A stretch of DNA of 35,989 nucleotides, from the NCBI GenBank assembly GCA_003225455.1, contig QIAB01000061.1, positions 21,100-57,088 of the forward strand. The letters are read 5' to 3'. Shown in pieces: positions 33,242-35,279 of this stretch. A program made the translations under genes and the position numbers. Positions within the stretch are counted from its first letter, which is position 1; each line of letters opens with the position of its first letter. The DNA is from Acidobacteriota bacterium (GTDB taxonomy: Bacteria; Acidobacteriota; Terriglobia; Terriglobales; Acidobacteriaceae). The notes under the pieces were generated by a model. It did not search any database, was not told where the DNA came from, and saw only the letters and a program-made list of their open reading frames with translations.

Positions 33242-33724
33242 CTATCCTGTTCCGGTGCGCCTGTACTCCTCGAGGACGCTGTCCATCTTCTCCGGCGTCA
33301 GGTTCTCGTGGAAGGCGTAGTTCACCTGAACGGCAGGCGCCCAACTGCATGCGCCTATGCATTCGACTTCCTCAAGCGAGAACAAACCGTCGCGAGCCGT
33401 GCCTTTGTGGCCGACTCCCAGCCTCTGCTTGCAATGCTCAAAAAGCTCTTCTCCTCCTCGCAGCATGCAGGCGATATTGGTGCACACCTGCACGTTAAAC
33501 TTGCCACGCGGCTTCGTGCTCAGCATCGAGTAATAGCTGATCACGTTGCGGACTTCCAATTCAGTGAGATCGAGACGGGCAGCAATTTCGGAGATTACTT
33601 CGTCCGTCAGATGCCCTACTTCATCCTGGGCGTAAAGCAACGTGGGAACGAGTGCAGACCTCTTCGTCGGATAATGCGTGAGCATTTCCGTGAAGCGCTG
33701 CTCGAATTGATGTGAGAACTGCAT
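33242..33724 (-). CDS. nuoE: NADH-quinone oxidoreductase subunit E
   Basis: 160 residues from ATG 33724 (MQFSHQFEQRFTEMLTHYPT); the longer frame to 33781 overlaps the repeat element and is not family-like. Thioredoxin-like 2Fe-2S (N1a) subunit: cysteines in VCTNIACML and ECIGACSWAP, after KRSALVPTLLYAQDEVGHLT and VRNVISYYSMLSTKPRGK. Pairs with NuoF. No Shine-Dalgarno before the start; a gap of about 350 bases from nuoD contains the composite repeat. Confidence 0.94.
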   Translation of the reverse strand: MQFSHQFEQRFTEMLTHYPTKRSALVPTLLYAQDEVGHLTDEVISEIAARLDLTELEVRNVISYYSMLSTKPRGKFNVQVCTNIACMLRGGEELFEHCKQRLGVGHKGTARDGLFSLEEVECIGACSWAPAVQVNYAFHENLTPEKMDSVLEEYRRTGTG

Positions 33725-33737
33725 GCTTGAGAACTTT

Positions 33738-34061
33738 GAAACCACAAAGGACACGAAGTTACACGAAGGAAACCCCAGCAATCTCTGGTGTGTGTGAGAA
33801 CTGTTCTTCCGCCCCCTACGGGGCTTTGCTCATTTTCCAATTTCACCCAGGGCTTGCGCCCTGGGCTGGATTCTGTCGCGGCTTCGCGGCTGGATTCTGT
33901 CGCGGCTTCGCGGCTGCATTCTGTCGCCGCTTCGCGGCTGGATTCTGGCGGTTTTGTTCCACCCGGGCAATCCGAAATTGAGTTCTCCCACAGACTCTCT
34001 CGTCTCGAAAAACCGTCTCGAAAAACCTCCCTTCGTGTACCTTTGTGTCCATCGTGGTTTC
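33738..34061. repeat. Composite repeat element between nuoE and nuoD
   Basis: Outer inverted repeats: 33738-33769 and 34030-34061 match at 28 of 32 positions when one is reversed. Inside: a hairpin GCCCC-CTAC-GGGGC (33811-33824); an eight-base-stem hairpin CCCAGGGC-TTGC-GCCCTGGG (33846-33865); then three tandem 24-base units (33866-33889, 33890-33913, 33914-33937) each with CGCG-GCTT-CGCG-like cores, and a partial fourth. The spacer 33725-34073 holds no gene. Outer repeats are related to the argS insertion. Confidence 0.75.
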
Positions 34062-34073
34062 TACTGTTTTTGA

Positions 34074-35279
34074 CTAGCGATCAATTTCTCCCAGCACGAT
34101 GTCGATGCTGCCAATCGCCGCCACCACATCTGCAATCAGGCGTCCCTCGCACATCATCGGCAGGGCTTGCAGATTTGCCAGGCACGCTGCGCGCATATGC
34201 ACGCGATACGGCTTCGCGGTTCCATCGCTGACCACGTAATAGCCCATCTCTCCACGTGGCGACTCGACTGCCTGATAAACCTCGCCTGCCGGAACCGCGA
34301 AACCCTCCGTGATGATCTTAAAGTGATAGATGAGCGCTTCCATTTGCGTCTTCATCTTTTCGCGATCGGGAAGCACCACCTTGGGAGCGTTCGCCTTGAT
34401 GGCTCCCTCAGGCATTCCATCGAGCGCCTGCTGCACGATGACAGTCGATTCGCGCAGTTCCTGAACGCGGCACATATATCGAGCGAACACATCGCCATCG
34501 GACGAAATCGGCACCTTAAACTTGAATTTTTCGTAACTTGAATACGGCATGTCACGACGAAGGTCGAAATCTATTCCACTTCCTCGCAACGTTGGACCGC
34601 TCGCCCCCAAAGCCAGCGCGTCTTCAGCGGTAATTCTCGCCACTCCTTTCGTTCGCATCATCCAAATCGGATTACCTGTCAGCAAATTTTCATATTCATC
34701 CACTTTGGATGGGAAGCGATTTGCAAAATCGCGTGCTCGTTCGAAAAATCCGATTGGCGGTTCGAGCGCCAACCCGCCGATCCGAAAATAAGAAGTCATC
34801 ATGCGCTGGCCACTAACCATTTCGAACAGCCGCAGAATGTCCTCGCGTTCGCGGAAGCAGTACAGAAAAACCGACATCGCGCCGATATCGAGCGCATGCG
34901 TTCCCAGCCAGACCAGGTGTGAGTTGATGCGCGTCAGCTCGTTCAGCAAAACACGCATCCATTGTGCTTTTGGCGGAATCTCCAACCCGAGCAGCTTTTC
35001 CACCGCCAGGCAGTAGCAAAGATTGTTCGTCAGCGGGCAGAGGTAGTCGATCCGGTCGGTCAGGGGCACTACCTGCTGATAAAACTTCGCCTCGCAGGTC
35101 TTTTCGATGCCGGTATGCAGATACCCAATGTCGGGCATTATCCGTACTACCGTTTCGCCGTCAATCTCGAGGATCAAGCGCAACACGCCGTGCGTAGACG
35201 GGTGATGCGGACCCATGTTGAGGATCATAGTGCGATCCTCGATGGGCTCGAGCGTCGGCATCGGCGTGAGGTGAGCCAT
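34074..35279 (-). CDS. nuoD: NADH-quinone oxidoreductase subunit D
   Basis: 401 residues, 49-kDa type subunit lining the quinone site. Blocks: MILNMGPHHPSTHGVLRLIL, DIGYLHTGIEKTCEAKFYQQ, LNELTRINSHLVWLGTHALD, GASGPTLRGSGIDFDLRRDM, VESPRGEMGYYVVSDGT and KPYRVHMRAACLANLQALPM. The His-59-type and Tyr-type quinone residues lie in the HHPSTHG region. ATG 35279 is two bases from the nuoC stop. Downstream, the composite repeat separates it from nuoE. Confidence 0.96.
   Translation of the reverse strand: MAHLTPMPTLEPIEDRTMILNMGPHHPSTHGVLRLILEIDGETVVRIMPDIGYLHTGIEKTCEAKFYQQVVPLTDRIDYLCPLTNNLCYCLAVEKLLGLEIPPKAQWMRVLLNELTRINSHLVWLGTHALDIGAMSVFLYCFREREDILRLFEMVSGQRMMTSYFRIGGLALEPPIGFFERARDFANRFPSKVDEYENLLTGNPIWMMRTKGVARITAEDALALGASGPTLRGSGIDFDLRRDMPYSSYEKFKFKVPISSDGDVFARYMCRVQELRESTVIVQQALDGMPEGAIKANAPKVVLPDREKMKTQMEALIYHFKIITEGFAVPAGEVYQAVESPRGEMGYYVVSDGTAKPYRVHMRAACLANLQALPMMCEGRLIADVVAAIGSIDIVLGEIDR

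Follow-up and report, generated by a model that had tools for sequence, protein, structure and literature searches.

The window, i.e., the whole stretch of 35,989 nucleotides that was analyzed, carries on its minus strand the nuo genes nuoE (33242-33724, ATG at 33724), coding for the 2Fe-2S thioredoxin-like subunit (PF01257, E 6.7e-51), and nuoD (34074-35279), coding for the 49 kDa subunit (PF00346, E 1.5e-116). They are separated by a 349-bp spacer (33725-34073). The position of the repeat island between nuoE and nuoD, as given in the initial annotation of this DNA, is confirmed.

The island is composed of two nested inverted repeats. The outer one is a palindrome whose 32-nt arms, both listed on the plus strand, lie at 33738-33769 (ACCACAAAGGACACGAAG..., GxxExxY type) and 34030-34061, 260 nt apart, and are 88% complementary, in agreement with the 28 of 32 identical positions reported earlier. 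Its loop comprises a left part (33770-33786), ending with a TCTCT (33782-33786) that is the left copy of an apparent flanking direct repeat, and a right part (33997-34029), beginning with CTCTC and containing a 13-bp direct repeat at 34001-34026. Between these parts lies an inner element of 210 bp (33787-33996, plus strand) bounded by terminal inverted repeats (TIRs) of 16 bp each, at 33787-33802 (GGTGTGTGTGAGAACT) and 33981-33996 (AGTTCTCCCACAGACT), on the plus strand and within the outer arms. The two hairpins previously noticed in the island could be located as H1 (GCCCCCTACGGGGC, 33811-33824, plus strand) and H2 (33846-33865), and the tandem 24-base units were recovered as well, with copies beginning at 33864, 33888, and 33912 and the last one ending at 33950; these 3.5 units (33864-33950, plus strand) correspond to an expanded third hairpin, H3. 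H2 together with the first H3 copy (33846-33891, plus strand) matches the Rfam family Acido-Lenti-1 (RF01687) with 47.1 bits, the gathering cut-off being 37, and a second, weaker match (33900-33939, 24.1 bits) remains below this cut-off. The inner TIR pair, and the fact that the inner and outer parts belong to separate repeat families, go beyond what had been described.

Regarding RNA structure, the transcript of the island on the nuo strand has a predicted fold with a z of -7.57, which none of 100 dinucleotide shuffles equaled, and the terminal stem of the island is also predicted by RNA folding. A pattern and consensus scan of the region detected nothing resembling a terminator on the nuo strand, one weak terminator-like site on the other strand, and no sigma-70-like promoter. 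A role as terminator or promoter was dropped on these results.

The nuoD/nuoE junction in relatives

The nuoE gene was located in 39 relatives, 29 of which could be examined at the junction, and the junction proves variable. In 7 of the 29, nuoD and nuoE abut or overlap, so that the comparison with empty sites proposed in the initial annotation did reveal relatives without any spacer. In five others (G004, G005, G007, G011, and G014) the junction harbors a gene of the PF05635 family (four-helix-bundle, 23S rRNA IVS protein). In G007 and G015, additional PF05635 or PF13366 genes are located no more than about 5 kb away from nuoE, and the PF05635 genes near nuoE, i.e., those of the same five genomes and of G015, are all co-directional with it. 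Seven spacers, picked by eye out of the 29, were tested for palindromes; five of them contain palindromes of short tandem repeats, differing in sequence, which exceed the best of 200 shuffles, and no palindrome beyond shuffles was found in the spacers of G009 and G018. The G024 spacer is a palindrome of the same outer type as that of the window, yet a different one, and no empty outer palindrome was found at nuoD/nuoE among the relatives examined. Seven nuoD-nuoE spacers of relatives (L075, L078, L080, L082, L083, L085, and L089) measure 330-470 bp and seem to share a small conserved ORF, which is 107 aa long in L083; Pfam gave no match for the one that was tested.

It can be hypothesized that the island regulates nuo, as an attenuator or a differential-stability hairpin that would set the ratio of nuoA-D to nuoE-N. 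A strong fold is indeed predicted inside the operon, and intercistronic hairpins have precedents. However, such a role appears improbable given that in the relatives examined the spacer is missing or replaced by other sequence, that both parts of the island are repeats dispersed elsewhere, and that nothing like a terminator was detected on the nuo strand by consensus scan.

The inner element and its RF01687 core

Ten other two-ended copies of the inner element were scored in the host genome, with lengths of 145-165 bp except for one of 315 bp that encloses another copy, and they share a stem that closes the element and three hairpins placed at comparable offsets. The window copy amounts to about 160 bp plus two extra 24-bp units and, compared with the other copies, its third hairpin is tandemly expanded to 3.5 units of 24 bp. 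Tandem growth of hairpin units is also seen in copies of another genome (L200 and L216). Subfamilies with a different sequence, one of them with different ends (GGCTGTTACGAAAC...), retain the same architecture. A tRNA-like structure, considered because of a GGTTCGATTCC stretch in one subfamily, was discarded, as ARAGORN gave no match in a scan of positions 33600-34200 of the window.

The hairpins are conserved: an alignment of ten hand-chosen, related rows contains 31 compensatory-change cells compared with 10.9 in shuffles, none of 500 shuffles being as high, while further pair types point in the opposite direction (16, below the 19.1 of the shuffles). Misplacement of H1 by MAFFT in two type-C rows of A2 lowered the pair count.

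Insertion was studied in 26 eye-picked, two-ended elements (11 of the host's own and 15 from G158); two of 28 candidates could not be located and were dropped, and one-ended elements as well as some two-ended ones (e.g., L208 and L216) were left out of the set. Direct repeats of at least 5 bp flank 20 of the 26 elements, against 4.8% of mismatched ends, and 8 of the 11 own copies, against 6.4% in the control. The element family prefers hairpin loops, since 16 of the 26 insertion points fall within a loop closed by a stem of five or more pairs, compared with 10.4% of 5,200 positions drawn at random from the loci concerned (p 4e-6 in a rank test). This holds for 5 of the 11 own copies and 11 of the 15 G158 copies, but 8 of these 11 insertions share one target, the H1 hairpin of a TIR-less core of the repeat itself, and are thus not independent. 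The window copy is among the 10 of 26 that fail this short-loop test (stem 2) because the loop of the outer palindrome, once the insert is removed, exceeds the 12 nt allowed; its nesting in the outer loop is read from anatomy. Its direct repeat TCTCT/CTCTC is short (5 bp), imperfectly placed, and requires some slack at the boundaries.

No transposase was found for the inner TIRs, nor any long TIR pair resembling an intact autonomous copy among the TIR positions listed for G000 and G158. At locus L014 (G000:C109:2933-6014), several RF01687-type elements are nested in one another and enclose a run of N as well as a stretch that resembles transposase coding sequence; this stretch lies within nested copies over a 1.3-kb span of C109.

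With regard to the RF01687 core, 21 matches over the cut-off are present in the host genome. In a draw from the phylum, matches with E 1e-4 or better occur patchily, in 62 of 247 genomes, and 10 of the 247 carry at least 23 matches each. Genes for Y1 transposases (Y1_Tnp, PF01797) are found in 56 of the 62 RF01687-positive genomes versus 82 of the 185 others (Fisher p 4e-11, kinship not corrected). Three RF01687-bearing genomes (G074, G177, and G193) have no PF01797 match at all, and three more (G051, G233, and G274) have none at the threshold of the draw-wide survey. The flanks (1.5 kb) of 20 Y1_Tnp loci, out of 30 collected in 12 genomes picked for carrying RF01687, were then scanned. RF01687 matches with E 0.1 or better flank 14 of the 20 loci, lying on both sides of the gene in 10, inverted in 9 of these; matches over the gathering cut-off are found in the flanks of 10 loci, and a distance of 70-170 bp separates most of the nearest matches from the Y1_Tnp match. 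Thirteen of the 14 RF01687-flanked genes were readable, and all 13 end with Y----Q. Two of the flanked transposases, compared with NCBIfam, match IS200 (NF033573) and miss the cut-off of REP_Tyr_transpos, one of them with a match below it.

In the host itself, the best match to an RF01687-flanked Y1 transposase corresponds to a remnant of the C-terminal part that contains a stop and lies between RF01687-like hairpins scoring below the Rfam cut-off. No RF01687 was detected in the flanks of L278 and L290, the two scanned among 11 host Y1 matches. Assignment to canonical RAYTs was set aside on this ground and on that of the IS200 class of the two transposases tested. As only a remnant of such a Y1 gene was found in the host, whose draft is 95% complete and could for that reason lack an intact one, the hairpins of the inner element would be either relics or dependent on a transposase located elsewhere.

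The RF01687 match over the cut-off on the plus strand could also be taken to indicate a stand-alone small RNA gene of the Acido-Lenti-1 type, lying here by chance and antisense to nuo, and the table entry of Weinberg et al. (2010) lists this family as a candidate RNA. Such a gene is very unlikely in view of the copy numbers and patchy distribution given above, the adjacency of RF01687 to transposase genes, its occurrence within TIR elements, and the failure of the consensus scan to find a sigma-70-like promoter in the region. Acido-Lenti-1 looks here like a mobile-element repeat rather than a small RNA gene.

The outer palindrome and arms around GxxExxY and PF05635 genes

The genome-wide search suggested in the initial annotation was performed in the host genome, a draft of 195 contigs, using the island as query. 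It returned 73 matches with E of 1 or less, window included and some being one place read on both strands, a number that is not explained by chance. The 72 matches to parts of the island beyond the window indicate that it is built of dispersed repeats; the full query is matched by the window only, and the parts match separately elsewhere. The suggestion of a non-autonomous element thus stands as far as mobile-looking dispersed repeats are concerned, and has to be amended in that there are two elements, each with many copies elsewhere, and not one. A lack of other copies and a constant presence in relatives had been named as arguments against mobility; as copies exist elsewhere in the genome and 7 of 29 junctions are empty, this objection fails. 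That the whole 324-bp island is a single composite transposon with the 32-bp outer repeats, which do enclose all of it, as its ends is barely credible and was rejected, considering that the parts match separately, that outer palindromes of 52-93 bp are found alone, and that elements of the inner type have their own TIRs and direct repeats.

The island is, instead, probably a nested insertion, in which a hairpin element lies inside the loop of an ORF-less palindrome of the GxxExxY type and would be shielded by a hairpin in the nuo mRNA. With at most one mismatch allowed, the outer pattern ACCACNNAGGNCACNNAG has 98 occurrences in the host genome compared with 11 for the reversed-pattern control and 86 versus 5 in G024; in G015, with 12 versus 7, it is hardly over the control. 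Seven distinct ORF-less palindromes of the outer type are present elsewhere in the host, spanning 52-93 bp, and the window palindrome without the inner element spans 109 bp. Five near-identical outer-type palindromes of about 130 bp (L151, L152, L155, L027, and L028 in the host) lie within other terminal repeats (GGTAGTGTCCTAAATTT...), with direct repeats of about 8 bp apparent by eye, and apparently represent a second, recent, MITE-like carrier of such palindromes.

The outer arm type (ACCACRRAGGRCAC...) resembles the inverted arms found around GxxExxY genes (PDDEXK; PF13366/TIGR04256) of relatives. In the host's family, inverted arms with a score of at least 12 surround the gene in 30 of 30 loci, 27 directly and three once the gene had been relocated; the control with mismatched pairs is uninformative (28% score at least 12) because the arms share sequence across loci. 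ACCAC is present in both arms at 21 of these loci and an ACCGC/CGCCGAG variant at the other nine, and the strict window-like pattern is found on at least one side in 12 and on both sides in 7. The closest arm compared, that of L433, is identical to the left arm of the window in 27 of 34 columns. Both GxxExxY genes of the host are armed, the one on C132 with the ACCAC type and the one on C11 with the ACCGC type. The palindrome in the window has inverted arms of the ACCACRRAG type; on reading, no GxxExxY ORF lies between them, the loop consisting of the inner element and short remnants, and neither of the two PF13366 matches of the host falls in this loop. From the likeness of its arms to those of GxxExxY loci, the outer repeat is read here as an ORF-less member of this palindrome class.

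Comparable arms surround PF05635 genes. Inverted flanking arms with a score of at least 12 were detected at 23 of 30 PF05635 loci of relatives, against one among control windows, and, over many phyla, at 61 of 79 testable loci (out of 80), against 3.5% of 395 mismatched pairs. Among the arms of at least 16 nt, 52 of 59 are tandem repeats (45 with period 7 and 7 with period 8), compared with 2 of 59 shuffled arms, and the heptamers are of many different sequences, some of them recurrent. At one PF05635 locus on a Planctomycetota contig (L400), inverted arms of about 198 nt made of 7-nt tandem repeats were observed. The ORF-bearing relatives are sense-oriented: taking the longest nearby ORF as the neighboring gene, which is a rough method, co-directional neighbors outnumber opposite ones for PF05635 by 61:11 upstream and 64:8 downstream and for 27 GxxExxY loci by 23:4 and 25:2, respectively, as compared with 17:18 and 18:17 for 41 Y1_Tnp loci. 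Since a period of 7 equals 1 modulo 3, heptamers containing TAG, TGA, or TAA give stops in all three frames and, as an idea only, the heptamer arms of PF05635 loci might insulate translation.

For the Coxiella IVS, PMC4990558 describes heptameric repeats located upstream of the point where S23p starts, and an excision that RNase III carries out at a stem of 28 bp; these features would fit a wider class of hairpins. The island, once followed up, leads toward a class of hairpin elements within bacterial operons that is widespread and little described. We propose tentatively, as quite possible though slightly less probable than its opposite, that rRNA IVSs are only the most familiar representatives of a large class of operon hairpins in sense orientation, with inverted arms made of tandem repeats (of period mostly 7 around four-helix-bundle genes and 8-9 around GxxExxY genes) enclosing a small ORF or an empty loop, in which the hairpin and not the sequence would be kept and the loop would serve other elements as a protected landing site, the window being an example. 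In the literature searched, which largely excluded subscription papers, no description was found of GxxExxY arms, of general heptad arms around PF05635 genes, or of RF01687 beside transposase genes.

Proposed history and likeness to known systems

The nested insertion may have arisen in three steps. As suggested by the comparison with relatives, an ORF-less GxxExxY-type palindrome would have entered between nuoD and nuoE, opening up a site at which several relatives have no gap between the two genes. To judge by the anatomy, the loop of the palindrome would then have received a non-autonomous element with three hairpins and TIRs of 16 bp, whose insertion left a short direct repeat, and the third hairpin of this element would, by reference to the other copies, have been amplified to 3.5 tandem units of 24 bp. 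In the polycistronic nuo mRNA, the outer arms would pair as in rRNA intervening sequences, and the contents of the loop would be held in a self-contained hairpin of the RNase III type while the flanking nuo genes remain translatable. With such tolerance, the loops of palindromes located at gene junctions would offer other elements a safe place to land, and further insertions could gather there. Formation of the outer stem in nuo mRNA, and shielding or release of the insert, belong to this model. The elements are most likely IVS-like and would be tolerated in operon junctions through a self-contained RNA hairpin.

The odd repeat island is explained by assigning each of its layers to a separate family. 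Acido-Lenti-1, an RNA family in Rfam whose function is unknown, is tied to Y1/IS200-like transposases, and inverted tandem-repeat arms in operons are tied to two protein families (four-helix-bundle/S23p and GxxExxY) whose role is likewise unknown. If the wider class is real, it would allow direct tests of the reasons for which insertions in rRNA and mRNA are tolerated by bacteria (shielding in a hairpin and processing by RNase III) and of the origin of tandem-repeat arms in which little of the sequence is fixed.

Among known systems, 23S rRNA IVSs likewise carry long inverted repeats at their ends, which form a single stem around a sequence inserted into a transcribed gene, and a gene of the IVS family PF05635 is found at the same nuo junction in five relatives. 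Unlike them, the window island lies in an mRNA operon (nuoD/nuoE) and not in 23S rRNA, its copy is without an ORF, and its arms are of the GxxExxY type, with a period of 8-9, instead of heptads.

As in REP/REPtron systems (TnpA-REP, RAYT), hairpin repeats of high copy number are also found on the flanks of a Y1 transposase gene. For class 3 TnpA, which occurs in Acidobacteria and other groups, PMC6006769 describes atypical hairpins, with about 600 copies in one Solibacter. PMC3733652 mentions TIR families of moderate abundance and genes for tyrosine transposases that have TIRs on their flanks. In contrast to REP/RAYT systems, no GT[AG]G, the motif given in PMC6006769, was seen at the foot of H1, H2, or H3 of the window (both strands, by eye), and the two transposases tested fit IS200 (NF033573) and fall below the REP_Tyr_transpos cut-off.

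The inner element resembles MITEs in being short and non-coding, with TIRs, direct repeats at the insertion site, and many copies (TIR pairs in G000 and G158). It differs from them in that no autonomous partner was found, in its three-hairpin interior with compensatory changes, and in that it often inserts into the loops of hairpins, some of which belong to its own core repeat. Finally, H2 and H3 of the window belong to Acido-Lenti-1 RNA (RF01687); however, the 46-nt Rfam model is here part of a larger unit, either a three-hairpin repeat of about 115 bp or a TIR element of about 160 bp.
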